Source of the DNA: Bacteroidota bacterium
Lineage (GTDB): Bacteria; Bacteroidota; Bacteroidia; Chitinophagales; Chitinophagaceae
Assembly (NCBI GenBank): GCA_013285905.1
Contig: JABDGU010000006.1
Location: 1-64,000 of the forward strand
Reading direction: 5' to 3'
DNA: 64,000 nt
Under the pieces are notes generated by a model. That model did not search any database, was not told the origin of the DNA, and saw nothing but the letters and a program-made list of their open reading frames with translations. The translations under genes were made by a program, and so were the position numbers. Shown here in pieces: positions 7,133 to 23,867 of the stretch (its first letter is position 1; each line of letters starts with the position of its first letter).

Positions 7133-9307
7133 CTAAGCTCCTAATGGTAGTTGCACATTAAACGTGGTTCCTTTGCCTTTTTCGCTCGTCACAGTAATAG
7201 AACCATTATTAGCTTTCACAAATTCGTAACACAGCAATAATCCCAGGCCTATGCCCTTTTCCCCATCAGTGCCGTAAGTGGTAGTTTCAGCGGTCGACGT
7301 AAAAAGCTTGTTTATCTGCTCCGGCAACATGCCTACACCTGTATCGGAAATGCTAAGGTTTACAGAATCTTCCACCGCGATGGCATTAAGAGTTATACAG
7401 CCATTGTTGGGGGTGAACTTAACGGCATTCATTACTATATTCCTGATAATTATCTGCAATTGCTCCGGGTCGCAAAGAACCTCAATGTTGTCAGGTATGT
7501 TGTTATTGATACCTATTCCTTTGGTTTCTGCTATATCATTCAATAATTCAATTGTGTCCCTTGCTGCCAGCAGCAGGTTCACTTGCGCCGGATTGGCATG
7601 TGTATGGCCCTGTATATAATGTCGTGCCCATTGCAATAAGTTGTCAAGCAGCGTATTCAGCGATTTGAGCTGCCTGTTCACTTCCGGTTTTAGTTCAGAA
7701 AATTCTTCCGGGCTAAGTATATCCTGGTCAAGCATCTGCACTGTCGACGTAACTGAGCCAAGAGGCCCTCTCAGGTCATGGGAAAGCACTGAAAATGTTT
7801 TATCCTTAAAGCGGTTGAGCTCTTCAAGCTTTTGGGCCTGCTTTTGTATCTCTTCTTTTTGTCTCAATATTTTTTTCCTGCTCCGCTTCTCATGCAGGCT
7901 ATTGCGATACAGTAATACACTTATGATAATAAGCAAGACCAAGCCGCCCACCAATGCAAGCATTATCAATTTCTGCCTTTCGCTTTTACTTTGCTGGATC
8001 TCTTTGTCCTTATTAAGTAAGGTTATCTGGCTTTCCTTTTTTCCAAGTTCATAATCAAATTGTGTTTGTAATATCCGTTTATTGGTTTTTTCGTTGTACA
8101 GTGAATCATAATAATTATAATATAACTTATGATATAACAATGCATGCTGGTAATCATGCAGCCTTTCATATGCATCAGATAAATCCCTGGCTGTTTCAAA
8201 AATGCTTTGTTTCAGTTGTTTTATTTGCGCCATGTTCAAAGCCTCCTGCAAAAGCGTGATACCCTCCTGAACTTTCCCTCGTTTCACTAGTATCGCACCA
8301 ATGGTCTGTTTACCTGTTTCTATGATAATAGTATCCGCCTGGTCATCCTCTTTCAACAACCTGGTGTAAATAGCAAGAGCAGAATCATCATTACCTGTTT
8401 TATAATAAGCGTCGGCAATATTGCCCAGGCAAAGGTTTTTCCATCTTATATCGCCAATAGCGTCTGCTATCGCAATTGCTTTATTATATGCCTTGAAAGC
8501 GTCGGTATAATCCTGCATCTGGCAATATGCCACTCCGGAATTAACATAGTTAGAGAATAAAACCTCTTTGTCGCTTACACCATTTATAGCAAGGCCCTGG
8601 TCAATATATTCTTTTGCTTTTTTATAATTGCCCATCCCGGAATACACTGTGGCTATATTCACCATAGTCATTGATATATCTTCATTGCTTTTAAGTTTTT
8701 CAAAAGCCTTCAATGCATTAATATAATAAGTGATAGCCTCCGGAAAATTACTCTGGTCTGCATATATCCCGCCAACATCTACCAATGCCAGCCCTTCTGT
8801 TTTGAGATTATTAATAGTTCTGCAGATATTTATGCACTTGTCATAACATTCAATGGCCAAAGCCCTGTTGCCAATGCGGTCATATATATCAGCAACAGAA
8901 AGCAAAACCCTGCACTGCGACTTCTTACTATTTGTACCCTCGTAAATATGTAAGGCCTCCAGGTAATATTTTAATGCGGTATCAAACTTGTTTCTTCTTA
9001 AATCGCCTATTCCAAGAAATTGCAGACAAGATGCCTCTCCTCTTAAATAATTTAACTTATATGCCAATTGCAAACCCTGGTTTGCAAACAACATCATCGA
9101 ATCCAGGTTGGTATCACGATAGCCCGAGGCTATGTCCGATAGCAATTGAACTTTAGTAGTATCATTTTGCAAATGAGATTTGAGGACAAAAAGAAGGCTA
9201 TCCTTGTTTTGTGCTTCTGCGGTACCGTTGAATGGTAGTGAGAAAAACAAACTAAGCGCAAAGACTACCCAATAAAAAGAATTTGACCGGTTTATCTTAT
9301 TATCCAT
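7133..9307 (-). CDS. TPR-repeat sensor histidine kinase
   Basis: About 724 aa from the Met at 9307 (MDNKINRSN); an upstream Met at 9352 is possible, but the signal sequence fits the inner start better. An N-terminal signal/TM region is followed by several tetratricopeptide repeats (periplasmic), one TM helix (WLLIIISVLL-like stretch two thirds along), a coiled coil, HisKA with the phospho-acceptor in FSVLSHDLRGPLGS, and HATPase_c with N box IVMNAVKFTPNNG, G1 DTGVGM and G2 GIGLGLLL. No response regulator is adjacent, so its partner is unknown. This architecture is common in Bacteroidota. Confidence 0.93.
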   Translation of the reverse strand: MDNKINRSNSFYWVVFALSLFFSLPFNGTAEAQNKDSLLFVLKSHLQNDTTKVQLLSDIASGYRDTNLDSMMLFANQGLQLAYKLNYLRGEASCLQFLGIGDLRRNKFDTALKYYLEALHIYEGTNSKKSQCRVLLSVADIYDRIGNRALAIECYDKCINICRTINNLKTEGLALVDVGGIYADQSNFPEAITYYINALKAFEKLKSNEDISMTMVNIATVYSGMGNYKKAKEYIDQGLAINGVSDKEVLFSNYVNSGVAYCQMQDYTDAFKAYNKAIAIADAIGDIRWKNLCLGNIADAYYKTGNDDSALAIYTRLLKEDDQADTIIIETGKQTIGAILVKRGKVQEGITLLQEALNMAQIKQLKQSIFETARDLSDAYERLHDYQHALLYHKLYYNYYDSLYNEKTNKRILQTQFDYELGKKESQITLLNKDKEIQQSKSERQKLIMLALVGGLVLLIIISVLLYRNSLHEKRSRKKILRQKEEIQKQAQKLEELNRFKDKTFSVLSHDLRGPLGSVTSTVQMLDQDILSPEEFSELKPEVNRQLKSLNTLLDNLLQWARHYIQGHTHANPAQVNLLLAARDTIELLNDIAETKGIGINNNIPDNIEVLCDPEQLQIIIRNIVMNAVKFTPNNGCITLNAIAVEDSVNLSISDTGVGMLPEQINKLFTSTAETTTYGTDGEKGIGLGLLLCYEFVKANNGSITVTSEKGKGTTFNVQLPLGA

Positions 9308-9450
9308 GTATATGCGAGAAAGCACTTGCAATGTAGGGAAATAATATAACACTTGTTCTCCAGGCTACTGTCGACTAGCCATCATTATTATATGGGAATC
9401 CACTATTTTGCGAAATAATTGACTAATTACGCATACCGAAAAATAAAATT

Positions 9451-11980: not shown

Positions 11981-12445
11981 TCAGGAAAGTAACTTTTGGC
12001 GTAACAGGAATTCAAGCTGGTCGTTCGAAACACTAAGCTTTTCTGTCATCTCTTTTTCTTCTATTCGCTTTTTATAAACGTCGTAAGCCCTTTGTATGGT
12101 CATGTCAAGTTCTTCTTCGTTCCAGGGCTTTGTGAGATAATGAAAAATTTTACCTTTATTAACTGCATCAATAACGGCATTCATATCTGCGTATCCCGTT
12201 AGCAAAACTCTTATAGGTTCGGGATGTTTTTCAATAATGGATTCCAGGAATTCTACCCCCGTCATACCTGGCATCCTTTGATCCGTAATTATTATATTTA
12301 TTTTGTTATTATCCAGAACTTTCTTCGCTTCTTCCCCCCCGATAGCCGTAAACACCTGGTATTTGATCCTAAAAACAGCCTTAAAAGAGATAAGGTTATT
12401 ATTTTCATCATCAACGTAAAGTATATTTATTTTTTCATTTGTCAT
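11981..12445 (-). CDS. Response regulator, single receiver domain with coiled-coil tail
   Basis: 154 aa. REC domain 1-122 with acidic pocket V-D12-D13, phospho-acceptor D55 (IITDQRMPG), T/G-Y switch in LLTGYAD and K-P in YLTKPW. This is the RpfG-like REC type. A short charged coiled coil follows and no DNA-binding domain. The REC is clearly paralogous to the REC of the hybrid kinase at 17944 (shared ILYxDDExNNL and VLxTGYAD blocks). It is divergent from the ThiF-nitroreductase operon, which suggests joint function. Confidence 0.93.
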   Translation of the reverse strand: MTNEKINILYVDDENNNLISFKAVFRIKYQVFTAIGGEEAKKVLDNNKINIIITDQRMPGMTGVEFLESIIEKHPEPIRVLLTGYADMNAVIDAVNKGKIFHYLTKPWNEEELDMTIQRAYDVYKKRIEEKEMTEKLSVSNDQLEFLLRQKLLS

Positions 12446-12630
12446 TTTTCCATCTTAATTTTCATTACATCCGAAATAAATAATACTAAATTTGGTCTCG
12501 AAATATATGCAAGTTAAGAGATTTGTTTGTACTATTATACTATAAATATAATGATTAAAGCAATTAATCCAAGCACTTACCACTAAATATATTATGAAAG
12601 CTGTTTTGAAAGTTCTTAAATTCAATATAA
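12446..12630. promoter_or_regulatory. AT-rich divergent promoter region
   Basis: 185 bp between the divergent receiver gene and the signalling operon. A perfect -7 element TAAATTTG lies at 12487-12494 (+). The region is very AT-rich. The start of a 28-codon open frame (12594) overlaps the beginning of the next gene and was not called. Confidence 0.4.
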
Positions 12631-14952
12631 ATGGATATTATAAAGAGATATACCGCTTCACAAAGCATTTTGTCGAGTGATATATACACTCCTCAAATTT
12701 TTAATACCAAAGTTAACGAGCATAGAAAAAAAATAGAAAATCTTCTCGATAAGCATAACTCACTTTATATTTATGATGAAATAGACGGACAATTAAGAGA
12801 GTTAATAAAAAGCCTGAACCCTTCAATAAAAATAAAACAGGAAGACTACCCCGCTTTAATCAAGGAACACCTTAATGGTCAAGACTTTGATGATTATGGT
12901 GTTTGGGTATATTATCCCTGGAGCCAGAAATTTATTCATACCCTGGATGAAGAAGAGTTCATTGAGATCAGGACAAACAGGAACCGCTACAAGATAACGC
13001 GGGAAGAACAACAACTTTTAAGAACAAAAAAGATCGGTGTCATAGGCTTATCTGTCGGGCAGTCAATTGCTTTGACTTTGGCCATGGAACGCACTTGCGG
13101 GGAATTGAGATTAGCTGATTTCGATACCGCTGAGTTAAGTAACCTGAACAGGATACGCACAGGCTTGCATAACCTGGGCGTAAAGAAAACCATAATTGCT
13201 GCAAGGGAAATTGCTGAAATAGACCCGTTTATAAAAGTGAAAATATTCAGTGATGGGCTCACTACCGGCAATATGGACGATTTTTTTGAGGGAGATGGCA
13301 AACTTGATCTTTTGGTGGAAGTATGTGATGGACTGGATATAAAGATACAAAGCCGTTACAAAGCCCGCTCCCTCAAAATACCAGTGGTAATGGATACTAA
13401 TGACAGGGGCATGCTGGATGTGGAACGCTTTGACCTGCAACCTGACCGGCCTGTTTTACATGGGCTTGCAGATGGCCTTGACCCTGAAAATATTAAAGAC
13501 CTCAGCAACGAAGAGAAAATCCCCTACATTCTTAAAATGGTGGGAATTGATACTATTTCAACGAGGCTTAAGGCTTCTATGATGGAAGTGGAGCAATCCA
13601 TCAATACCTGGCCACAACTTGCATCTTCAGTTACCCTTGGTGGAGCTTTAACAACCGATGTATGCCGCAGGATATTGTTGGATCAGTATCATGATTCGGG
13701 CAGGTATTATATAGACTTGGATGAACTGGTTGAAGATAAGGTAATACATAAAAACGGGAAAGCTCATTTCGGCGCTAATCCATACAAACCACTTGAGCAG
13801 GAAGAAATGCAGAAAATAGTTGCAAAATATTTCTCTTTTGCAAAGGCCCCCGAGTATAAACCGGCTGAAGAACAACTTGATAAAATAATAGACGCCGCTA
13901 TCGCTGCGCCATCTGCAGGTAATAATCAACCCTGGAAATGGTATTATAGTAATGGCATCTTATTCCTTTTCCATGATAAATACAGGTCATGGTCATGGGG
14001 CGATTATTATGAAATGGGATCCCACATGGCTTTAGGTGCGGCTCTTGAGAATGTTCACCTCGAAGCGCTGAAATTAAAATTAGAAGATAAGTGTACAGTT
14101 CTGCCTATAAAAGATGAACCTAAACTAATTGCTGTTGTCCATTTTGCTACAGACTTGATGAATGAAGATTTGCTTAGTTTGAAGCTTGCCGATAATATCT
14201 TTAAAAGAACTACTAACCGAAAACTTGGTCCCCGCAAGCCATTGCCAGCTGCTTTTTACGACACTTTACAAAATGTAATTCAGCCACTTGGCAATATACA
14301 TCTTGCCCAACTTGATGATGAAGAAAACCTTACTAAACTAGGCGGGATCATAGCCTCTTGCGACAGGATAAGATTGCTAAATGAGCAGGGCCATGAAGAG
14401 TTTTTTAATGAAGTGCGGTGGACAAAGGAACATGCAGAAGAACACAGGGATGGAATTGAGCTAGCCAGCGTGGAATTGAGCAAAAGTGATATAGCGGGGT
14501 TCCAGGTAGCACAGGACTGGAATGCTGTTGAATTACTAGCTAAGTGGAATAAAGGGGACGCTTTCAAACGTTCATCTGTAAAAACCATCAAATCGGCGTC
14601 AGCTATGTTACTGTTTTCGATACCTGAATTTGACCATAGTTCTTTAATAAATGCCGGAAGGGCTATTGAAAGAGTATGGATATTTGCTAATTTACATGGC
14701 ATTTCAGTCCACCCTATGCTATCGCCTGTTTTCTTTTTTAACAGGATGATACACGGCAAAGGCATTGAAATGGAAGAAAGTGTTATCAAAGAATTGAAAG
14801 GATTGAGGGAAGAATTTGTAAATATTTTTCCATTACATATAGAAAACCAAGGAGCGTATTCAGAGGTATTTCTCATGAAATTGTCAATTGCTGATGATAT
14901 CGGGACAAAATCATTGAGAAAACCTAAAAAAGATATATTTTACAGGGAGTAA
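12631..14952 (+). CDS. Rv1355c-like fusion: ThiF/E1-like adenylyltransferase plus nitroreductase
   Basis: 773 aa in two parts. Residues about 110-350 form an E1/ThiF/MoeB Rossmann domain: nucleotide loop IGVIGLSVGQS (135-145), acidic strand LRLADFDTAELSNLNR (159-174) and the second half TDVCRRILL. No CxxC zinc pairs are visible. Residues about 405-760 form a nitroreductase-like flavin domain (AAIAAPSAGNNQPWKW). The same fusion is known from Mycobacterium as Rv1355c (annotated moeY), of unknown function. ThiF plus flavin dehydrogenase chemistry recalls the activation and oxidation steps of azole-type natural products. First gene of a five-gene run; the next start follows the stop without a gap. 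Confidence 0.88.
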   Translation: MDIIKRYTASQSILSSDIYTPQIFNTKVNEHRKKIENLLDKHNSLYIYDEIDGQLRELIKSLNPSIKIKQEDYPALIKEHLNGQDFDDYGVWVYYPWSQKFIHTLDEEEFIEIRTNRNRYKITREEQQLLRTKKIGVIGLSVGQSIALTLAMERTCGELRLADFDTAELSNLNRIRTGLHNLGVKKTIIAAREIAEIDPFIKVKIFSDGLTTGNMDDFFEGDGKLDLLVEVCDGLDIKIQSRYKARSLKIPVVMDTNDRGMLDVERFDLQPDRPVLHGLADGLDPENIKDLSNEEKIPYILKMVGIDTISTRLKASMMEVEQSINTWPQLASSVTLGGALTTDVCRRILLDQYHDSGRYYIDLDELVEDKVIHKNGKAHFGANPYKPLEQEEMQKIVAKYFSFAKAPEYKPAEEQLDKIIDAAIAAPSAGNNQPWKWYYSNGILFLFHDKYRSWSWGDYYEMGSHMALGAALENVHLEALKLKLEDKCTVLPIKDEPKLIAVVHFATDLMNEDLLSLKLADNIFKRTTNRKLGPRKPLPAAFYDTLQNVIQPLGNIHLAQLDDEENLTKLGGIIASCDRIRLLNEQGHEEFFNEVRWTKEHAEEHRDGIELASVELSKSDIAGFQVAQDWNAVELLAKWNKGDAFKRSSVKTIKSASAMLLFSIPEFDHSSLINAGRAIERVWIFANLHGISVHPMLSPVFFFNRMIHGKGIEMEESVIKELKGLREEFVNIFPLHIENQGAYSEVFLMKLSIADDIGTKSLRKPKKDIFYRE

Positions 14953-15657
14953 ATGTTAAAAATACGGGCATTTAAGGCCACTGATGATCTTGAGTCATGC
15001 AAGCGCTTCGCGGAAGGGCATGCTAATGTTTTGCGGGATTATGGTGTCACAAAGGTAACATCGTCGAAAAACGATTGGTTTTATAACCCTGATGTATATG
15101 TTGTACTGGTTGAAACAATTGATGGATCGGAAGTAGTAGGAGGAGAGCGAATACACTTAGTGAATAAAAAATTCCCCTTGCCTATTGAAGAGGCTGTATC
15201 AATTGTTGATAAGAGAATTTATGACCTTGTGGCCCGGTATTCGGACAATCAAATAACCGGGGAGCTATGCGGGCTGTGGAATGCAAAGCTAATTGCGGGG
15301 AGAGGCGTTAGCTGGTTCCTGACAAAACTGGGAGTTGCAATTGCGAATATGATAAGTATGGACAGTCTTTTTGTGTTGTGTGCCCCGTATACCGTAGAGA
15401 TGTGCCAAAAGGCCGGTTTTGAAATTGAAACTTCTATAGGCGACCATGGAACTTTCAATTATCCCAAACTTGACCTGATAGCGACTGCCCTTTTGATAAA
15501 AGACCCCGAAACACTGGGCTATGCAGATAATAGCGTGCGGGAAGAAATTTTTAATTACATTAGAAACCCACTGGGTACTATTATTGAAGCCGGCCCAAAA
15601 GGAGATACTGAAATAGAGTATAATATTTTGCTGCCAAAATTGCAAAAACAATTATGA
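14953..15657 (+). CDS. Acyltransferase-like protein (GNAT / N-acyl amino acid synthase type)
   Basis: 234 aa. It has the GNAT-fold order of motifs: N-terminal MLKIRAFKATDDLESCKRF, a central beta strand ending in GGERIHLVNKKF, the acyl-CoA or acyl-ACP pocket region GLWNAKLIAGRGVSWFL and a late ...FVLCAPYTVEMCQKAGFE helix. This resembles the LuxI/FeeM-like branch rather than plain acetyltransferases, but no catalytic residue is certain. It directly abuts the ThiF-nitroreductase gene and overlaps the kinase gene by 4 bp. Inference: it acylates the product of, or a substrate for, the fusion enzyme. Confidence 0.7.
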   Translation: MLKIRAFKATDDLESCKRFAEGHANVLRDYGVTKVTSSKNDWFYNPDVYVVLVETIDGSEVVGGERIHLVNKKFPLPIEEAVSIVDKRIYDLVARYSDNQITGELCGLWNAKLIAGRGVSWFLTKLGVAIANMISMDSLFVLCAPYTVEMCQKAGFEIETSIGDHGTFNYPKLDLIATALLIKDPETLGYADNSVREEIFNYIRNPLGTIIEAGPKGDTEIEYNILLPKLQKQL

Positions 15658-17834
15658 GGTACACCCGTTATCTGATTTTTTTTATTGCTTTTCTTTCCTT
15701 CTGTTCATTAAAAAGTATAGGCCAAACGGCGCTTGATTCTATTATAGTATCAAATCAAAAAACACAGGAAACTTATTTCGGCGATAAGGTTTATATCCTG
15801 GCAGATTCCGCAGGCAAGCTTGATATTAACGACATTGTTAAAGACACGTCATTTAAGCACAGTCATGAAAACATACCTAACCTGGGTATTAATAATTCTA
15901 CGTTCTGGATAAAGCTAAGGCTGCATAATAATTCCGAAAATAAAAAAATACTGCTTGAAGTAGAAAACCCCTTACTTGAAGATGTAAGTCTCTATTATGC
16001 TTCTGACACTGCCGGACATTTTGCGAAAAAAATAGTTACCAAAGACCTGCCCTTTGCCGCACGGGGCAATTCAAGCCAGAATTATGATTTCACTGTTATA
16101 CAGGAACCCGGCACTACAGGTACTTATTTCCTGAAGATAAGAGGCAATACGCAGAAACTGATACCCATAAAGGCAGGAGTTCCTGTTGTTATCGCCAACG
16201 ATGGTTCGAATAAGGACCTTTTAAGCGGTTTGTATTTCGGCATCATGCTTGTCATGTTCCTGTATAACCTCTTTGTTTATATCAGCGTAAAAGACAAAAG
16301 CTATCTATACTATATTCTGTACATTGTTGCAGTAACACTTGTCCAGCTCAACATTACAGGTTTTGGTTTTAAATACCTGTGGCCGGGATACCCTGCATTT
16401 GAAAAATTCAGTGTTTTCCTATTTCCCTCGGTAACTGCTTTCACTTCTATAGCTTTTATAAGGCAGTTTTTACGTACTAAGCAATTTGTGCCACGCCTGC
16501 ATCACGGGTTCTGGATATTTATTGTGGCATACCTGTTTACTGTTGCTAATGGTATATGGGGTAATAAATTACTAAGCTATAATTTAATAAATGCCAATGC
16601 CCTACCCCTATCGTTATATATGATAGGTATTGCTACCTACATCAGGATAAAACACAAATACAGGCCTGCATTTTTCTTCCTGGTAGCATGGACGGTCTTC
16701 TTGCTTAGCATCATGATATTTGTGCTGAAAGATTTTGGCATTTTTCCGTACAACCTGCTTACCGTTTCATTTATCCAGATAGGCTCCGCGGTTGAAGTTG
16801 TGTTATTGTCAATCGCCCTTGCCGACAGGATAAATATTCTTACCCGCGAAAAAGAAGAATCACAGGCCCTTGCATTGCAAGCTGCCGAAGAAAACGCACG
16901 TATCATCAGTGAGCAAAATGTAATACTCGAAACGAAAGTTGAAGAACGCACCGTTGAGCTAAAAGCCTCGAACGATGACCTGAGTAAGGCTATGACGGAA
17001 CTTAAAGAAGCCGAATCGCAGTTGGTGGAATCAGAGAAAATGGCTTCTCTTGGTCAGCTTACTGCCGGTATTGCACACGAAATAAATAATCCTATCAATT
17101 TCGTCACATCCAACATCAAACCACTGAAAAGAGATGTGGAGATGCTGCTTGAGGTTGTAGACACCATAGAGAAGGTATCCTTGTCTGATGTGTCGGCAGC
17201 CGAAAAACAAAAGCAAATAGACTCCTATAAGATGGACATTGACTTCGATTATCTTAAAACAGAGATCGACCATTTGCTGAACGGCATCAATGAGGGGGCA
17301 TCAAGGACATCTGAAATTGTAAAGGGCCTGCGCATATTCTCCCGCCTTGACGAGGACGACTTGAAAATGGCTGATATAAACGAAGGCATAGACTCCACAC
17401 TTGTCATAATAAATAACCTCTTAAATAACCGTATAGAAGTAGTAAAATACTACGGGCAAATACCTTTGGTGGAATGTTATCCCGGCAAGCTCAACCAGGT
17501 ATTCTTAAACATGATTACCAATGCTATTTACGCCATAAACAAAAGGTTTTTTGAGCAAGCAGGTGGCAAAGTGACCATTACTACAAGCAATAATGAGGAT
17601 AATGTATTCATTAAAATAGCGGATAATGGCACCGGAATGGACGAGACCACCAAGAAGAAACTTTTTGAACCCTTCTTTACGACGAAGGATGTTGGTGAAG
17701 GTACGGGCTTAGGTCTTTCTATCGCTTACAATACCATCAACAAGCACAACGGGCACATTAATGTAAACTCCGTAATAGGTGAAGGCACGGAATTTATAAT
17801 TGATATACCCTTGAAGCCGGCTGTGGCGGTGTAA
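15654..17834 (+). CDS. 7TM-DISM sensor histidine kinase
   Basis: 726 aa. Signal peptide (about 1-23), periplasmic 7TMR-DISMED2 beta domain (about 40-170, with NSTFWIKLRLHN), seven TM helices (about 185-395), a coiled coil, HisKA with H475 in TAGIAHEINNP, and HATPase_c with MITNAIYAI, DNGTGMD and GTGLGLSIAYNT. DISMED2 domains are carbohydrate- or small-ligand-binding-like extracellular sensors. Its start overlaps the acyltransferase stop, so sensor and synthase candidates are translationally coupled. Partner: likely the REC proteins at 17944, 19038 or 11981. Confidence 0.94.
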   Translation: MRYTRYLIFFIAFLSFCSLKSIGQTALDSIIVSNQKTQETYFGDKVYILADSAGKLDINDIVKDTSFKHSHENIPNLGINNSTFWIKLRLHNNSENKKILLEVENPLLEDVSLYYASDTAGHFAKKIVTKDLPFAARGNSSQNYDFTVIQEPGTTGTYFLKIRGNTQKLIPIKAGVPVVIANDGSNKDLLSGLYFGIMLVMFLYNLFVYISVKDKSYLYYILYIVAVTLVQLNITGFGFKYLWPGYPAFEKFSVFLFPSVTAFTSIAFIRQFLRTKQFVPRLHHGFWIFIVAYLFTVANGIWGNKLLSYNLINANALPLSLYMIGIATYIRIKHKYRPAFFFLVAWTVFLLSIMIFVLKDFGIFPYNLLTVSFIQIGSAVEVVLLSIALADRINILTREKEESQALALQAAEENARIISEQNVILETKVEERTVELKASNDDLSKAMTELKEAESQLVESEKMASLGQLTAGIAHEINNPINFVTSNIKPLKRDVEMLLEVVDTIEKVSLSDVSAAEKQKQIDSYKMDIDFDYLKTEIDHLLNGINEGASRTSEIVKGLRIFSRLDEDDLKMADINEGIDSTLVIINNLLNNRIEVVKYYGQIPLVECYPGKLNQVFLNMITNAIYAINKRFFEQAGGKVTITTSNNEDNVFIKIADNGTGMDETTKKKLFEPFFTTKDVGEGTGLGLSIAYNTINKHNGHINVNSVIGEGTEFIIDIPLKPAVAV

Positions 17835-17841
17835 ACAAAAA

Positions 17842-17867
17842 AACCTATAGAATTGATTCTTTAGGTT
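17842..17867 (+). terminator. Weak intergenic hairpin after the 7TM-DISM kinase
   Basis: Two 12-nt arms (AACCTATAGAAT / ATTCTTTAGGTT) with one mismatch and a very tight loop. No clear T tract follows. It may be an attenuator in the 109-bp gap inside the signalling gene run. Confidence 0.3.
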
Positions 17868-17943
17868 AAGTTTGGAAGCCTATGAGCCTTAAAATCAATA
17901 ATTGGCTATAAAACTTTGATAAATATTTGTAAATTGTTTTTGA

Positions 17944-19035
17944 TTGAGTAAGAGCGATAAGATAAAGATACTATACATTGACGATGAGGTCAATAACCTG
18001 GTGGGGTTTAAAGCATCCTTCCGGATGGAGTATACTGTTTTTGTTGCTCCTGACACTATACAGGCTTTTGACGTGCTTGAAAAAAACCCCGACATAAGGG
18101 TAATACTGAGCGACCAGCGCATGCCCAACCAAACCGGGGTACAGTTTTTTGAGCAAGTGCGCACTTTGCACCCCAACCCCATGAGGGTGCTTATTACCGG
18201 GTACGCAGATATTGAGGCTGTAATAGAATCCATCAACGTTGGTCATATTTTCCGTTATATACGCAAGCCCTGGCAAGAGGTAGATATTATTTCCGCTATA
18301 GAGGAAGCAAATAAATTTTATGTTACCAATACAATGCTCTCGGTTAAAAACGAAGAGTTGCAAAAGGCCTACGATGAACTTGATAAATTTGCCTACAGCG
18401 TTACACATGATATGCGTGGCCCTTTGTTAAGTATCCTTGGTGCGGTTGACCTCTCTAAAAACATTGATGATATTAATGAAATAAGGGAGATGCTGGGCAT
18501 GATGGAAAAGTCTGTGCTGAAACTGGACAATTTCATAAGAAGCGTGCATGAGTATTATAACCTGAAACGTGGCGACTTGCATATTGTCAACATTGATTTT
18601 AATAGTATCGTTACCGATCTTACCGATATGTATGATATTACAAGGAAGATGGCCAACATAAGGTTTGTTACCAATGTTTCGCAAAAAGAGGCGTTCAGGT
18701 GCGATGAAATGTATTTGAGGATCATATTGAATAATTTGCTTTCTAATGCATTTAAGTATAATCGTAAGGATATTTCTGATAAATTTGTGGAATTAAATAT
18801 CGAAACGGGCAATGGCAGCAGTGTTATTACCGTTAAAGACAACGGAATAGGCATACACGAAAGCCACATTGGCGAGATATTTAAAATGTTTTACAGGGCT
18901 ACCAACGAGGAAACAGGGTCGGGGTTTGGTTTATATAATGTAAAAGATGCATTGACAAAATTGAATGGTGAAATTATTGTTGATTCTAAACCTGAAGAAG
19001 GCACAACGTTTAAAGTGATCATACCAAGTAAATAA
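17944..19035 (+). CDS. Hybrid protein: receiver domain followed by histidine kinase (TTG start)
   Basis: 363 aa. REC 1-125 with D57 (LSDQRMPN) and IRKPW, then a coiled coil, HisKA with H155 in FAYSVTHDMRGPLLS, and HATPase_c with NNLLSNAFKYN, DNGIGIH and GSGFGLYN. The only start compatible with a full REC domain is TTG at 17944, because an in-frame TGA lies directly upstream (17941-17943). REC at the N-terminus of a soluble kinase is a phosphorelay intermediate: it probably receives phosphate from the DISM kinase and passes the signal to the receiver 2 bp downstream. Confidence 0.92.
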   Translation: MSKSDKIKILYIDDEVNNLVGFKASFRMEYTVFVAPDTIQAFDVLEKNPDIRVILSDQRMPNQTGVQFFEQVRTLHPNPMRVLITGYADIEAVIESINVGHIFRYIRKPWQEVDIISAIEEANKFYVTNTMLSVKNEELQKAYDELDKFAYSVTHDMRGPLLSILGAVDLSKNIDDINEIREMLGMMEKSVLKLDNFIRSVHEYYNLKRGDLHIVNIDFNSIVTDLTDMYDITRKMANIRFVTNVSQKEAFRCDEMYLRIILNNLLSNAFKYNRKDISDKFVELNIETGNGSSVITVKDNGIGIHESHIGEIFKMFYRATNEETGSGFGLYNVKDALTKLNGEIIVDSKPEEGTTFKVIIPSK

Positions 19036-19037
19036 AA

Positions 19038-19442
19038 ATGACCCCGAACAAACTACACTTTATTGTTATTGACGATAGCAAACTCGATTGTTTCATAGCA
19101 GAAAAGATCATTCGCAACACAGGCCGCAGCGAAACTATAAAGTCATTCCTTCATGCCAGCGAGGCCCTGGACTATATAAGAAATGCCCCCCTCGCTACAG
19201 ACGGGCTGAAAACCATATTGCTGGTTGATATACAGATGCCTGTGATGAACGGCTTTGAGTTTGTAGAATCCTTCGACCGCCTGCCTAAAGAAAAAAGGGA
19301 AGACTATATTATTTACGTACTCTCCTCCTCCATCAACGAAAACGACCTTAACCGCGTACGCTACCACACATCCGTAAGGCAATTCTTAAACAAACCCCTT
19401 ACCAGCAATACCTTATCTGCAATGCTGGACATGGTGCATTAA
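19038..19442 (+). CDS. Single-domain response regulator (CheY-like)
   Basis: 134 aa consisting only of a REC domain: acidic pocket D12-D13, phospho-acceptor D64 (LLVDIQMPVMNG), switch S in LSSSIN and K-P in FLNKPL. It starts 2 bp after the hybrid kinase. There is no output domain, so it should act by protein contact or as a phosphate carrier at the end of the relay. Confidence 0.94.
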   Translation: MTPNKLHFIVIDDSKLDCFIAEKIIRNTGRSETIKSFLHASEALDYIRNAPLATDGLKTILLVDIQMPVMNGFEFVESFDRLPKEKREDYIIYVLSSSINENDLNRVRYHTSVRQFLNKPLTSNTLSAMLDMVH

Positions 19443-19698: not shown

Positions 19699-19733
19699 CG
19701 TGTTATCCATCCTCATCTGCCTTATTCCAATAA
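19542..19733 (+). pseudogene. cysC: Truncated cysC (APS kinase) copy
   Basis: The first 52 codons match the intact cysC at 21076, including P-loop GLSGAGKTT and IIDGDEYRKLL. The frame then runs 11 foreign codons (ACYPSSSALFQ) to a stop inside the DUF1016 3' end. All sequence after LGFTKE, including the APS-binding and lid regions, is lost, so it cannot be a kinase. It was created by the local duplication. Confidence 0.88.
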
Positions 19734-20720
19734 TTTGTTTAACTTGTTTGTAAGCAGTGTTTTATCAGGCAGGTACAGTTGGTACTTGCTCGTTAGTATC
19801 TGGTTACTGATGTTTGCTGTCGCATATTCCACTAATACATGGTCTTTATACGCACCAAGCAATATTCCTACCGGCTCGTTATCGCCCTCGCTGGCTTCTT
19901 CTTTTTTAAAGTAATTCAGGTACAAGTTCATTTGTCCTACATCTTCATGGTCTATTTCACCTCTTTTCAGGTCTATCAGCACAAAGCATTTTAATATCCG
20001 GTGATAAAAAAGCAGGTCAACATGAAAGTGCCGGCCTGCTATACTTATCCTGTATTGGCGTGCTATAAACGCAAACCCCTTACCCAGTTCCAATAAAAAC
20101 TGTTGTAAATTATCTATTAGCTTTTGTTCCAGTTCCGTTTCTAAATACCGCTCTTGTTCAGGTATGTTCAGAAATTCAAGCACAAAAGGGTCTTTTATCA
20201 GGTCCTCGGCGCTTTGCACCTCATGGCCCTCGCTCGCCAGTTTCAATATTCCTTCTTTATCTTTGCTTAGTGCCAACCGGTGAAATAGCATACTTTTCAT
20301 CTGCCTCTTTAGCTCCCGTACGCTCCAGTTTTCTTTCTCTGCCTGTTTTGTATAGAAACCTATCTCCAGTTCGTTTTCTGCTTTTAATATTTCAAAATAA
20401 TGCGACCACGTCAATTGGTGAGACAGTGTCTCACCAATTGGGAAAGACAGGAACAATCTCCGCATATATATAATATTCGAGCGGCTAAATCCCCTTCCAT
20501 ACCTCGCTGTTAAGTCTGTAGAAAGTCTGTCTATTAATTGTGTCCCGTAACTCGCTTTCGCACTGCCATCCTGTTCAAAATTAACGATATACTGCCCTAT
20601 CTGCCAGTAGGTTTGCACCAAAATAGTGTTCACCGCATAAGCCGCCTTTTCCCTGCCCTGGCTTAGCAGCTTACCTATCTGTTCTACTAATGAGGGATAA
20701 GCATCCATAGTCTTTTCCAT
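19722..20720 (-). CDS. DUF1016 / YhcG-type PDDEXK nuclease-domain protein
   Basis: 332 aa. An N-terminal helical domain (about 1-160, including YWQIGQYIV, RYGRGFSRSNI and LTWSHYFEIL) is followed by a PD-(D/E)XK core (about 225-300) with HVDLLFY and FVLIDLKRGEI giving the D...D-x-K signature. This is full-length DUF1016, a family of predicted nucleases often found in mobile or accessory DNA. It is inserted between the two copies of the cysC 5' end and has no partner gene. A 29-bp palindrome lies within its coding sequence (20412-20440). A role in DNA processing or defence is inferred only. Confidence 0.9.
   Translation of the reverse strand: MEKTMDAYPSLVEQIGKLLSQGREKAAYAVNTILVQTYWQIGQYIVNFEQDGSAKASYGTQLIDRLSTDLTARYGRGFSRSNIIYMRRLFLSFPIGETLSHQLTWSHYFEILKAENELEIGFYTKQAEKENWSVRELKRQMKSMLFHRLALSKDKEGILKLASEGHEVQSAEDLIKDPFVLEFLNIPEQERYLETELEQKLIDNLQQFLLELGKGFAFIARQYRISIAGRHFHVDLLFYHRILKCFVLIDLKRGEIDHEDVGQMNLYLNYFKKEEASEGDNEPVGILLGAYKDHVLVEYATANISNQILTSKYQLYLPDKTLLTNKLNKLLE
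20412..20440. repeat. 29-bp palindrome inside the DUF1016 gene
   Basis: Two perfect 14-nt arms, CAATTGGTGAGACA and its complement, around one central base. On the coding strand it encodes PIGETLSHQL, and the opposite strand would encode almost the same peptide. Confidence 0.9.
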
Positions 20721-20976: not shown

Positions 20977-21232
20977 ACTTTTTGGCTTATCAGCCTCCCA
21001 TTTCATTGCAGTGTTCCGGGGCGTTGGCACCCTGCATGGTTCGGTAATTCTATCTATCTTTCCTTATATTAGTGTATGATTATCCAATTCTGTGGCCTTT
21101 CAGGTGCAGGTAAAACAACACTTGCAACAAGAGTCAAAACCATATTAAACGAGCAAAATATCCCTGTCGAGATAATTGATGGTGATGAATACAGGAAAAT
21201 ATTATGCGCTGATTTGGGCTTTACCAAAGAAG
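20977..21232 (+). repeat. Downstream copy of the duplicated cysC 5' segment
   Basis: The partner of 19447-19698 and presumably the parental copy, since it continues into an intact cysC. It includes the leader with the block GGCGTTGGCACCCTGC and the shared start context TATATTAGTGTATG. Confidence 0.88.
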
Positions 21233-21606
21233 ACAGAAATACAAATATCCGGCGGCTTGCTTTTGTAGCGGCTAAATTATCCTCATACAATATTGTATCT
21301 ATTATTTGCGCAATAAACCCTTACGAAGAAATCCGTAAAGAGATTGGTTTGCAATACCCCAATGTAAAAACTGTTCACATCAACTGCAGCATAGACGAAC
21401 TGCTGAATCGCGATACAAAAGGCCTGTACAAAAAAGCGATGCTGCCCGATACGCATCCTGATAAGATTCATAACCTTACCGGCATTAACGACCCTTTCGA
21501 AGCGCCTCAAAAGCCTGATTTGACAGTAAACTCCCACCTTGAGACTATTGAACGATCCGCCGGAAAGCTAGCCCAATTCATTTTACAGAATTATAAAAGC
21601 GCCTGA
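21076..21606 (+). CDS. cysC: Adenylylsulfate (APS) kinase
   Basis: 176 aa. ATP + APS to PAPS. P-loop GLSGAGKT (7-14), DGDEYR, LGFTKEDRNTNIRR and RDTKGLYKKA lid motifs are all present, so the enzyme should be active. It is shorter at the N-terminus than E. coli CysC (about 200 aa), as is common for stand-alone forms. Convergent with cysN: the 3' ends overlap by 24 bp. PAPS made here may feed the sulfotransferase at 28550. Confidence 0.95.
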   Translation: MIIQFCGLSGAGKTTLATRVKTILNEQNIPVEIIDGDEYRKILCADLGFTKEDRNTNIRRLAFVAAKLSSYNIVSIICAINPYEEIRKEIGLQYPNVKTVHINCSIDELLNRDTKGLYKKAMLPDTHPDKIHNLTGINDPFEAPQKPDLTVNSHLETIERSAGKLAQFILQNYKSA

Positions 21607-22803
21607 TGTATTATTCGTTTCAGGGTCTATAATAATACCTCTGCCTGTCTCTGCCTGTCCTGGCCGATGTCTCTGCCCTTGCAGGACTCGGCGGCAATCA
21701 AAAGCAATTTTATCCTTCATCTTTATTTTCACTCTTGCAAATTCATTCACACTTACCGGTTCTTCACTTTTATACGTTTCAAAAGTATCATTGTCCGTTT
21801 TGCAAATTATCTCCTTCACTTTGCATATAGTTTCTGCTGTTCCTATCCTTAACAAATAATCTTTGCCTGCCTGCAATGCATTTTGCGTGTCCAAGCAGCA
21901 AAGTTCCGCTTCAATTTCCTGCCCACATTGTAGGGTGTTTAATTCACGGGTTAAAATATCGCCTCTTTTCACATCGCCGTTCACGAACAAACAAATATTT
22001 TGTCCCGCAACAGCTTCCAGCACTTCATCATATCCATGCAGTATTTTATCCGCCACAAGCCTTTCTCCTTGCGGATTTACCAATAAAACGTCACCACTTT
22101 TTAAAGTACCCGATATCATTTTTCCATACACAGCATTATCTCTTACATATTGCACCGAAAACCTCATTTCGGCATTAACTGCATTTTCTTTCCCTTCGCA
22201 TTTTTCAAGATACTCAAACAAAGTTACCCCATCATACCAGGGCATATTCCCCGAGCGGAAACTTATATTATCTCCTTCCAATGCGCTTACAGGTATAAAA
22301 TTCACATCCGGCAATTGCAGCTTTTCGGCTATTTGCAGGTACTCATTTTTAATAACCTTAAATATTGCTTCATCATAGCCCATCATGTCCATTTTATTGA
22401 TGGCCACCACCACCTGCTTTATTCTTAGAAAAGAAGCCACTAAAGAATGCCTGCGTGTCTGGGCTGTAATGCCATTGCGGGCATCTATTAATATAATTAT
22501 TGCATCCACATTCGATGCCCCCGTAACAAGGTTCTTGGTATATTGAAAATGCCCCGGCGCATCCGTAATAATATATTTCCGGTTTGGAGTAGTAAAATAT
22601 TTATAGGCAACATCAATCGTTATCCCCTCCTGCCTTTCGGCCCGCAAGCCGTCTGTTATATGCGCTAAATTAATAGCCGCATTCGCAGACACCGATTCCA
22701 GCACATCAGCTTTCAGGTTATTGGTATCATACAACAACCTGCCTATCAAAGTACTCTTCCCATCATCCACACTTCCCGCCGTTATAAACCTAAGTATGTC
22801 CAT
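21583..22803 (-). CDS. cysN: Sulfate adenylyltransferase subunit 1 (GTPase)
   Basis: 406 aa from the Met at 22803 (MDILRFITAGSVDDGK). G1 loop GSVDDGKS (10-17), G3 DAPGHFQYTKN (from 81) and G4 NKMD (136-139), then EF-Tu-like beta-barrel domains. It couples GTP hydrolysis to APS formation by CysD. Not fused to CysC, which is separate and convergent. The frame stays open upstream to 22887 through palindromic repeats, but the family begins at MDILRF. A 110-bp repeat-filled gap separates it from cysD, unusually long for this pair. Confidence 0.95.
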   Translation of the reverse strand: MDILRFITAGSVDDGKSTLIGRLLYDTNNLKADVLESVSANAAINLAHITDGLRAERQEGITIDVAYKYFTTPNRKYIITDAPGHFQYTKNLVTGASNVDAIIILIDARNGITAQTRRHSLVASFLRIKQVVVAINKMDMMGYDEAIFKVIKNEYLQIAEKLQLPDVNFIPVSALEGDNISFRSGNMPWYDGVTLFEYLEKCEGKENAVNAEMRFSVQYVRDNAVYGKMISGTLKSGDVLLVNPQGERLVADKILHGYDEVLEAVAGQNICLFVNGDVKRGDILTRELNTLQCGQEIEAELCCLDTQNALQAGKDYLLRIGTAETICKVKEIICKTDNDTFETYKSEEPVSVNEFARVKIKMKDKIAFDCRRVLQGQRHRPGQAETGRGIIIDPETNNTSGAFIIL

Positions 22804-22815
22804 TTTTTTGTTGTC

Positions 22816-22860
22816 ATGGCGGGCGCCGACCCGCCATCTCATCAATCCCGCAAAGCGGGA
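22816..22860. repeat. Two tandem hairpin repeats between cysD and cysN
   Basis: ATGGCGGG/CCCGCCAT (22816-22823 with 22830-22837) and TCCCGC/GCGGGA (22846-22851 with 22855-22860). The arrangement (TCATGGCGGG...CCCGCCATCTC) has the look of the dispersed REP-like elements common in Bacteroidota. It sits in the cysD-cysN spacer and would form hairpins in the message. Confidence 0.7.
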
Positions 22861-22881
22861 ATATCGGTACTCGCCCTCCAT

Positions 22882-22912
22882 TTGCACATTTTCACATTTT
22901 CAAATTTGCCCA
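22882..22912. repeat. Degenerate CACATTTTC-type repeat
   Basis: A run of CACATTTTC-like units (TTGCACATTTTCACATTTTC, then AAATTTGCCCATT). A similar run occurs at 27405-27440, so it is a dispersed low-complexity repeat type. Confidence 0.55.
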
Positions 22913-22913
22913 T

Positions 22914-23867
22914 TCAAAAATACCCCACCATCTTCCTGTCCTCCATGCCTGCATCCGAAATAGCATCATCCATTCTTGTTTCGCCCCGCTCGCTTATCGC
23001 CGAGTGCTCAATTTCATATATCACCTCATCCATCGTCATGGCTTCCGAGCGCACTGCTGCCGTGCAGGTCATATCGCCCACTGTTCTGTAGCGCACCATA
23101 GTGTTTACAATCGTGTCCCTATCTTCTATATTTATAAATTCCGACACCGCCACCAGCTTCCCCTCATGCACAATACACTTCCTTTCATGTGCAAAATATA
23201 AGGATGGCAAAGCTATTTTCTCCCGCCGTATATAATGCCACACATCCACCTCGCTCCAATTACTTATCGGGAACACCCGCATATTGCCCTGCGCCGCACT
23301 TCCCCTCTCGAGAGGGCTTAGGGCTGTGTTATTCCCCCTGTCATCCTGAGCTCGCCGAAGGAGCCCATTATAAACCTCCCAAAGCTCCGGCCTTTGCTCA
23401 CTTGGCTGCCAGGCACCCGAAGCATCCCGCACCGAAAATATCCGCTCTTTCGCTCTCGCTTTTTCTTCATCCCTGCGGCCACCACCTATGCAGCAATCAA
23501 ACCTAAACTCATTTATGGCATCCATCAAAGTAACAGACTGCAAGGCGTTCCTGCTTGGTAATTTCGATTTTTCTTCTTGTATTTTTTTCAACCGTATGGT
23601 GTCTCCCACACGTCGCACAATCAGCTCCAAACCATGCTGCCTCACCAATTCATCCCGAAAAATTAATGCCTCCTCAAAATTATGCCCAGTATCTATATGC
23701 ATCACCGGGAAGGGTAGCTTATTAGGATAGAAAGCCCTCAGCGCCAGATGTATCATCAGGGTAGAATCCTTGCCTCCCGAAAACAGCAGCACGGGTTTTG
23801 TAAACTGCGCCGCCACCTCCCGCATAATATATACTGCTTCTGCCTCTAAAATCTCTAGGTGGTCCAT
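22914..23867 (-). CDS. cysD: Sulfate adenylyltransferase subunit 2, with repeat-derived insertion
   Basis: 317 aa. ATP + sulfate to APS with CysN. The PP-loop is LLFSGGKDSTLM (about 28-39); CCIGGGRRDEEKARAKERI and the family C-terminus are present. The usual sequence NG-(about 7 aa)-RVFPxSNW is here interrupted by about 22 extra residues (roughly LLRRAQDDRGNN, TALSPLERGSAAQG). That insert is exactly the translation of two dispersed DNA repeats (23298-23365), and the frame is kept. The core is otherwise intact, so the protein is probably functional. It follows the GT25 gene by 1 bp, giving an operon GT25-cysD-cysN. Confidence 0.94.
   Translation of the reverse strand: MDHLEILEAEAVYIMREVAAQFTKPVLLFSGGKDSTLMIHLALRAFYPNKLPFPVMHIDTGHNFEEALIFRDELVRQHGLELIVRRVGDTIRLKKIQEEKSKLPSRNALQSVTLMDAINEFRFDCCIGGGRRDEEKARAKERIFSVRDASGAWQPSEQRPELWEVYNGLLRRAQDDRGNNTALSPLERGSAAQGNMRVFPISNWSEVDVWHYIRREKIALPSLYFAHERKCIVHEGKLVAVSEFINIEDRDTIVNTMVRYRTVGDMTCTAAVRSEAMTMDEVIYEIEHSAISERGETRMDDAISDAGMEDRKMVGYF
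23298..23365. repeat. Two dispersed repeats inserted in frame in cysD
   Basis: 23298-23331 (hairpin CCCTCT-CG-AGAGGG, then TTAGGGCTGTGTT) matches 28430-28463 at 30 of 34 positions by my count. The adjoining 23339-23363 resembles the widespread Bacteroidota repeat GTCATCCTGAGC...GAAGGA. Together they account for the extra residues in CysD. Confidence 0.8.

Follow-up and report, generated by a model that had tools for sequence, protein, structure and literature searches.

We identified in a Bacteroidota bacterium of the family Chitinophagaceae an operon that is probably a self-contained small-molecule signaling system, in which enzymes make a signal derived from an acyl amino acid and a kinase encoded in the same operon senses it. 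The operon occupies positions 11981 to 19442 of a 64,000-nucleotide stretch of DNA, hereafter the window (assembly GCA_013285905.1, contig JABDGU010000006.1, positions 1 to 64,000). A preliminary description of this DNA had proposed that the enzymes make a compound sensed by the coupled kinase, and we still infer this, now with support from the presence of the full-length kinase in 46/46 family genomes with the operon's acyltransferase and in 0/101 without it, and from the joint diversification of the kinase's sensor half and a tailoring enzyme. On balance, we also favor the broader reading of a small-molecule pherotype family in Bacteroidota, in which one unvarying acyl-amino-acid synthase works with end-group enzymes that can replace one another (an oxazolone cyclase with or without a desaturase, ICMT-type or S-adenosylmethionine [SAM] O-methyltransferases, or an FAD oxidase), and each chemistry has its matching DISMED2-7TM sensor module, which moves together with the enzyme as a single cassette. 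Taken as a 2-component small-molecule self-sensing system, the operon has a real chance of representing a new signaling family of Bacteroidota.

The 6 open reading frames of the preliminary description, 5 same-strand genes with tight junctions and a divergent receiver paralogous to the receiver (REC) domain of a hybrid kinase, were recovered at the same positions, and the paralogy is borne out by the domains and by 46% identity over 144 residues between the 2 receivers. On the forward strand, a fusion of a ThiF-like cyclase and a nitroreductase-superfamily flavin oxidase (Rv1355c/TrzS/OxzB type; 12631..14952, 773 aa) abuts the gene of an FeeM/LuxI-fold N-acyltransferase, a predicted N-acyl amino acid synthase (14953..15657, 234 aa), which overlaps by 4 bp the gene of a 7TMR-DISM histidine kinase (15654..17834, 726 aa, phosphoacceptor His475). 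After a gap of 109 bp follows a REC-HisKA-HATPase hybrid kinase, hereafter the REC-kinase (17944..19035, 363 aa with a TTG start as listed; Asp57 and His155), and after another 2 bp a lone receiver domain (19038..19442, 134 aa, Asp64); the divergently transcribed receiver lies on the reverse strand (11981..12445, 154 aa, Asp55). Pfam annotated Response_reg in the receivers and, in the 7TMR-DISM kinase, DISMED2 (15783-16172; 3e-25), the 7TM bundle (16215-16829; 7TMR-DISM_7TM, 3e-49), and a HisKA/HATPase part from about 17049, where the HATPase was present and the HisKA match of 22.4 bits lay below the cut-off of 26.9. Residues 1-395 of this kinase (15654..16838) form the sensor half, the segment that is exchanged with the tailoring gene in relatives.

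The acyltransferase was identified in 46/147 genomes of Chitinophagaceae and in 34 of the 100 genera sampled, and the same DISMED2-7TM kinase adjoins it in all 46 genomes. No full-length kinase match was found at E<=1e-60, a cut-off of our own choice with up to 7 candidates scored per genome, in any of the 101 family genomes without the acyltransferase. At this cut-off, 47/147 genomes were matched, namely, the 46 and G059, and the latter was rejected as a case of the kinase without the acyltransferase, its hit being a different 532-aa protein matched in the kinase half only. ThiF relatives (E<=1e-30) were identified in 30/147 family genomes, every one among the 46. Within the 40 family genomes examined as large regions, the DISM kinase follows the acyltransferase in 40/40 (1 cut by a contig end), with the REC-kinase in 37, the divergent receiver in 35, ThiF or ThiF-nitroreductase in 28, and the lone receiver in 19. 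The other 6 comprise the window, G065, G131, and G145, together with G033 and G107, in both of which contig ends divide the acyltransferase and, by coordinates, the kinase follows its main piece in the former and its C-terminal piece in the latter.

Beyond the family, 13/395 genomes of a phylum sample had the acyltransferase, and the kinase adjoins it in 11/11 loci examined (the window, L035, L047, and L175-L182; G253 and G334 lie outside this count). Scanning 84,980 species genomes yielded at least 592 candidate stretches, with at least 555 confirmed as the acyltransferase. The best 80 of these at least 555 loci, which are not a random sample, include Sphingobacterium, Pedobacter, Parapedobacter, Daejeonella, Mucilaginibacter, Algoriphagus, Cytophaga, Cryomorphaceae, Crocinitomicaceae, and Thermaurantimonas, and the kinase is paired with the acyltransferase in 80/80, some cut by contig ends. 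All these relatives' loci were found via the acyltransferase, and its neighbors are the same set of genes at roughly 40-75% identity. The 40 family regions and the best 80 loci, minus 7 duplicates, gave 113 distinct loci, in all of which the kinase, complete or truncated by a contig end, adjoins the acyltransferase; His475 is present in 110/113, with 3 gaps. The REC-kinase was identified in 105/113 loci (Asp57 in 104/105, His155 in 104/105), the divergent receiver in 104/113 (Asp55 in 104/104), and the lone receiver in 48/113 (Asp64 in 48/48). The search for the same gene order in related genomes, which had been suggested as a check, thus found it conserved well beyond close relatives (46/46 family genomes and 80/80 named-record loci), and this conservation of the operon is not chance.

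Relatives differ in a slot that adjoins the acyltransferase on one side or the other and holds the tailoring enzyme. Across the 113 loci, the slot encodes ThiF-nitroreductase in 47, ThiF alone in 27, a class I SAM methyltransferase in 26, an ICMT-type methyltransferase in 3, an FAD-binding oxidase in 2, nitroreductase fragments at contig ends in 2, and no tailoring gene in 6, including L041, which lies outside the 98-locus set and was scored as none because its contig ends. Each tailoring type was assigned from BLAST matches to a single query, with L035 set to ICMT by hand after its frames were read and later found at 63% identity. Pfam, run on the window fusion and 8 representatives, annotated the latter as ICMT (1.5e-20 and 3e-18), Methyltransf_25 (9e-20, 1e-16, and 4e-13), FAD_binding_4 (9e-22 and 5e-18), and ThiF (5e-15). 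Judging from the chemistry of their families, the ThiF, ICMT-type, and SAM methyltransferase proteins are all candidates for capping an N-acyl amino acid at its free carboxylate.

In several relatives, an exchange of the tailoring enzyme goes with an exchange of the sensor half of the kinase, and this modularity is what is new here. For the trees, 15 of the 113 loci were dropped (incomplete kinase, REC-kinase, or divergent receiver, or a fragmentary label), leaving 98 loci that with the window make 99 rows; L171-L182 lie outside this set. Over the 99 rows, the tree of the sensor half requires a minimum of 13 changes of tailoring type, whereas those of the kinase half, acyltransferase, REC-kinase, and divergent receiver require 26, 21, 25, and 24, respectively. 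FastTree with full columns gave 16 changes for the sensor (14 for the 7TM bundle and 15 for DISMED2 taken singly), 27 for the kinase half, 21 for the acyltransferase, 24 for the REC-kinase, and 22 for the divergent receiver. Bootstraps of 150 columns with 30 replicates each ranged from 12 to 16 for the sensor, 12 to 17 for 7TM, 13 to 20 for DISMED2, 19 to 22 for the acyltransferase, 22 to 28 for the kinase half, 23 to 28 for the REC-kinase, and 22 to 28 for the divergent receiver; a control with the fastest columns of kinase and REC-kinase required 22-27 changes in 20 replicates, and labels shuffled on the sensor tree required at least 41 in 200 shuffles. The 24 methyltransferase-type sensors form one clade with a support of 99.9, which the kinase, acyltransferase, and REC-kinase data reject (p-AU 5e-55, 5e-47, and 1e-40, from quick trees).

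Given the kinase, REC-kinase, and divergent receiver distances, the partial correlation with tailoring difference was 0.32 for the sensor, 0.41 for 7TM, and 0.11 for DISMED2 (0/500 permutations each), and −0.04 for the acyltransferase (441/500 permutations at or above). Among pairs whose mean kinase and REC-kinase distance is 0.2-0.3, those sharing a tailoring type have a median sensor distance of 0.48 and those differing in it one of 0.70 (111 and 142 pairs, respectively). Exchange is visible directly in Sphingobacterium, where identity between the ThiF-type L139 and L147 and the methyltransferase-type L144 is 89% for the kinase half, 93% for the REC-kinase, and 92-93% for the acyltransferase, but only 25-27% for the sensor. 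Identity in exchanged pairs climbs at residues of about 360-410, the end of the 7TM bundle, and the 94% DNA identity of L147 and L144 extends nearly as far as the acyltransferase gene's 3′ end, so the exchanged segment consists of the tailoring gene and the sensor half. This co-diversification supports self-sensing of a putative acyl-oxazolone or ester signal.

The chemistry proposed for the window operon draws on characterized relatives of its fusion protein, which matches the NCBIfam Rv1355c family NF005901 at 800 bits (cut-off 476) over residues 16-768. Its ThiF half (residues about 19-368, 12685-13734; Pfam ThiF 7e-15) carries the residues G139, G143, D163, D165, R174, and D233, invariant in 74/74 ThiF-bearing relatives; D233 is also invariant in 8/8 rows of a smaller alignment and probably corresponds to D217, the reported adenylation Asp of M. 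smegmatis TrzS. The residues R540 and Q651, reported elsewhere in TrzS, were not mappable onto the window fusion. The nitroreductase half (from residue about 411, 13861-14949; Pfam Nitroreductase 4e-7) shows the motif APS-GN-QPW, whose positions are kept in 42-46 of 47 fusions, with the exact APS string missing in L043, L058, L063, and L068. The fusion of L058 (6890-8968) has a nitroreductase half lacking the flavoenzyme motif altogether and appears intermediate between the ThiF-nitroreductase and ThiF-only types.

The preliminary description had taken Rv1355c-type fusions to have no assigned function, which is out of date: Rv1356c and Rv1355c are TrzA and TrzS, where TrzA N-acylates tryptophan and TrzS cyclizes the product with ATP, with subsequent O2 desaturation to an N-acyl tryptazolone, and both TrzS and OxzB convert N-acyl amino acids to oxazolones by ring closure (PMC12856293). 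Similar chemistry is split over the separate proteins TyzA, TyzB, and TyzC, and OxzAB of Pseudoalteromonas rubra is cited alongside (PMC10404671). A Nitratidesulfovibrio plasmid (L170:2162-5083) encodes a natural 974-aa fusion of FeeM (Pfam 5e-44), ThiF, and Nitroreductase, a candidate one-protein oxazolone pathway, adjoining genes of PEP-CTERM proteins. In Streptomyces plasmids, L167:5170-7038 encodes a weak GNAT/FeeM-like part fused to ThiF and followed by a ketoacyl-ACP synthase, and L168:5926-7724 a ThiF-GNAT gene pair, the ThiF proteins of both being without a nitroreductase domain. Because natural fusions join all 3 of them (L170) or the first 2 (L167), the FeeM-like, ThiF, and nitroreductase activities probably belong to one pathway. 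A Rhodococcus gene of the Rv1355c type (L166:2961-4696) is flanked by a GGDEF gene and by a divergent gene of an unannotated 252-aa protein with a faint, nonsignificant likeness to the acyltransferase family; c-di-GMP genes beside trzAS have also been reported (PMC12856293).

The acyltransferase itself matched no Pfam or NCBIfam family at E<=1, with the FeeM (PF21926) and LuxI models included, and sequence searches of PHROGs, PDB sequences (single and profile), and plasmids returned no significant family. Its AlphaFold2 model, built from 43 sequences with a mean pLDDT of 92.2, has a GNAT fold with acyl-synthase architecture. VIA-align placed FeeM (2g0b) first at Z 17.2 over 173 residues, followed by the generic acyltransferases 1xeb (16.3) and ElaA (16.2), by LasI, RpaI, and BjaI at ranks 4-6 (15.5, 15.3, and 15.2), and by further GNATs at Z 13-15; with Foldseek, BjaI, RpaI, and FeeM fill ranks 1-9. 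The LuxI/FeeM-like character claimed earlier for this protein therefore held when its model was compared with those structures, with FeeM the best match and LuxI-type synthases among the top ones rather than an unrelated GNAT first. Since generic GNATs overall also score Z 13-16, the assigned function rests on context as well as fold. No significant similarity emerged when the acyltransferase alignment was compared with the ThiF-neighbor proteins of Streptomyces, Mycolicibacterium, and Rhodococcus or with the N-terminal segment of the Nitratidesulfovibrio fusion (best L166, probability 8%), so its kinship to TrzA and OxzA rests on fold and context, not on sequence. The closest structures reported for TyzA are likewise FeeM and BjaI (PMC10404671). 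The operons L072 and L132 each contain 2 acyltransferase paralogs, possibly for a second acyl-amino-acid product.

In the mechanism we propose, the FeeM/LuxI-fold acyltransferase would join a fatty-acyl group, from acyl-CoA or acyl-ACP, to the amine of an amino acid, giving an N-acyl amino acid. The ThiF half of the fusion would close the carboxylate with ATP to a 5(4H)-oxazolone, and the flavin-dependent nitroreductase half would desaturate the ring with O2 to an acyl-azolone, both as in TrzS and OxzB; in relatives, the alternative slot enzymes would give this carboxylate another cap, such as a methyl ester. The product, neutral and amphipathic, may then exit the cell or partition into the envelope, where the DISMED2-7TM half of the same-operon kinase would recognize it and His475 would be phosphorylated, the phosphate passing to the REC-kinase (Asp57), the lone receiver (Asp64), or the divergent receiver (Asp55), with an output that might depend on cell density. 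The first steps rest on characterized homologs and the ligand step on co-diversification; the order of the relay and its output are what we infer.

Several observations weigh against this reading or temper the evidence for it. The operon is patchy, missing from 101/147 family genomes, including the sole other genome of the same genus sampled (89% complete), and 5 loci of the 99-row set have a slot without a tailoring gene; elsewhere in these 5 genomes, ICMT was matched at 7e-27 in 1 and weakly (2e-7 to 4e-4) in 3, with none in 1. By Pfam, the operon's response proteins are of the REC-only and REC-kinase types, with no output domain, and tryptazolones were found mainly in cells, with the acyl-amino-acid intermediates in the medium (PMC12856293). 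On the statistical side, the permutation tests treat loci as exchangeable and ignore shared ancestry, so their significance is overstated; the methyltransferase clade was chosen as a test group with the sensor tree already known; and the kinase half, given the 2 REC proteins, has its own small correlation with tailoring type (0.13, 0/500 permutations). Close pairs are few, with only 6 tailoring-differing pairs at a mean kinase and REC-kinase distance <0.2, several sharing L144, and at distances of 0.3-0.4, the sensor contrast is nearly gone (0.66 for the same and 0.69 for different tailoring). Gene order matters as well: the contrast is strong in the order acyltransferase-tailoring-kinase (5 changes on the sensor against 12-13 elsewhere) and nearly absent in the order tailoring-acyltransferase-kinase (sensor 6; acyltransferase, REC-kinase, and divergent receiver 7; kinase 8). 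In these tailoring-first operons, ThiF distances follow the sensor (partial r 0.435) but also the acyltransferase (0.349) and the kinase half (0.334), all significant by permutation, and among the 24 methyltransferase operons, the acyltransferase likewise varies with the enzyme (0.807 against 0.952 for the sensor).

These last results bear on the possibility that the kinase regulates a biosynthetic operon in response to some unrelated stimulus from the envelope or the environment, with the tailoring gene and the sensor half traveling together merely by adjacency between recombining flanks. Because the 2 adjoin between conserved flanks in the order acyltransferase-tailoring-kinase, one recombination can exchange both, and the exchange boundary does coincide with the return of sequence similarity; moreover, subinhibitory antibiotics induced oxazolones in proteobacteria, for which stress roles have been proposed (PMC12856293). 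Adjacency alone, however, would apply equally to the acyltransferase, which over the 99 rows does not track tailoring type, and in tailoring-first operons ThiF tracks the farther sensor at least as well as the intervening acyltransferase; the kinase also accompanies the acyltransferase in every family genome that has it. We regard linkage without self-sensing as unlikely.

We likewise assign a low probability to the product being mainly an envelope lipid, surfactant, or antibiotic whose level the kinase monitors for homeostasis or immunity and not for cell-cell communication. N-acyl amino acids and oxazolones can indeed be membrane associated or bioactive (PMC12856293, PMC10404671), but this does not by itself explain the joint diversification of end-group chemistry and receptor, and it still includes sensing of the product, differing from self-sensing for signaling in purpose alone. 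That the ThiF domain is the E1 of a ubiquitin-like protein-conjugation or defense system, with no part in lipid chemistry, is very improbable and was rejected: weak PADLOC E1-E2 matches to the ThiF part, 27 bits at best, speak for it, but the full-length match is to Rv1355c/TrzS at 800 bits, no E2, peptidase, or ubiquitin-like gene was recognized among the clustered recurrent genes of 40 loci (which were not scanned cluster by cluster with family models), 30/30 family genomes with a ThiF relative also have the acyltransferase, and L170 fuses the functions.

Self-sensing by a cassette of enzyme and receptor has counterparts among known systems. A signal-modifying enzyme and a kinase co-diversify inside one locus in both ComQXPA and agr, and in ComP it is the N-terminal half that varies. 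The window operon differs from both in its predicted acyl-amino-acid small molecule in place of a peptide, its gram-negative Bacteroidota host, its DISMED2-7TM receptor, and the absence of a DNA-binding regulator from the operon. In ComQXP pherotypes, which define communication groups, signal-processing enzyme and kinase co-vary in one locus (PMC4408185), and this parallel likewise favors function over linkage. The corresponding pattern here, covariation of the signal-processing gene with the sensor half but not with the kinase half, holds over the 99 rows and is nondiscriminating in the tailoring-first subset.

With the LuxI-type synthases, the operon shares an acyl synthase whose modeled fold is the same by the scores given above, and the acyltransferase-kinase pair recalls LuxM-LuxN, where an acyl synthase gene lies beside that of a multi-transmembrane kinase. 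It differs from the LuxI-type and LuxM/AinS systems in lacking a Pfam LuxI match at E<=1 and a LuxR-type gene in the operon, and in a carboxylate closure predicted to proceed via ThiF and ATP and not via SAM chemistry. To our knowledge, LuxI/LuxR-type systems are not the rule in Bacteroidota. OxzAB, TrzAS, and TyzACB share with the window an FeeM-fold N-acyltransferase, a ThiF cyclase, and a nitroreductase-superfamily oxidase, the last 2 fused as in TrzS and OxzB, whereas the constant 7TM-DISM kinase with REC proteins and the exchangeable tailoring enzyme set the window type apart; the main texts of PMC12856293 and PMC10404671 contain 0 mentions of a kinase or 2-component system. NAME-type esters (PMC11580390, PMC6296433) are a plausible product class of the methyltransferase-type operons, assuming that methyl transfer takes place, and earlier studies had found no candidate genes for a NAME synthase (PMC11580390). 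We found no description of this kinase-acyltransferase operon in open-license papers, nor the terms 7TM or DISM in the excerpt of a review of 2-component quorum sensing (PMC8895600). The parts are known, and their combination with a dedicated, chemistry-matched receptor was not found in print within the same open-license literature.

The physiological role of oxazolones has been called a major unresolved question (PMC12856293), and the constant presence of a receptor kinase in the operon makes it directly testable with product and kinase. Should the proposed reading be true, the operons would constitute a signaling language of Bacteroidota and explain what some 7TMR-DISM kinases sense; oxazolones would gain a receptor, and NAME-type ester signals a gene candidate. 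Small-molecule signal chemistry and receptor would then evolve by cassette exchange, as a chemical analog of the ComX/Agr pherotypes.

Around the operon in the window, a gene of a YhcG/DUF1016 PDDEXK nuclease (19722-20720; Pfam 2.6e-58) lies directly downstream on the opposite strand, and a TPR histidine kinase gene upstream (7133-9352) is absent among the recurrent genes of relatives' loci. Farther downstream, at 21076-23867, 3 open reading frames resemble the sulfate-activation genes cysC, cysN, and cysD, as read by eye without a family search.

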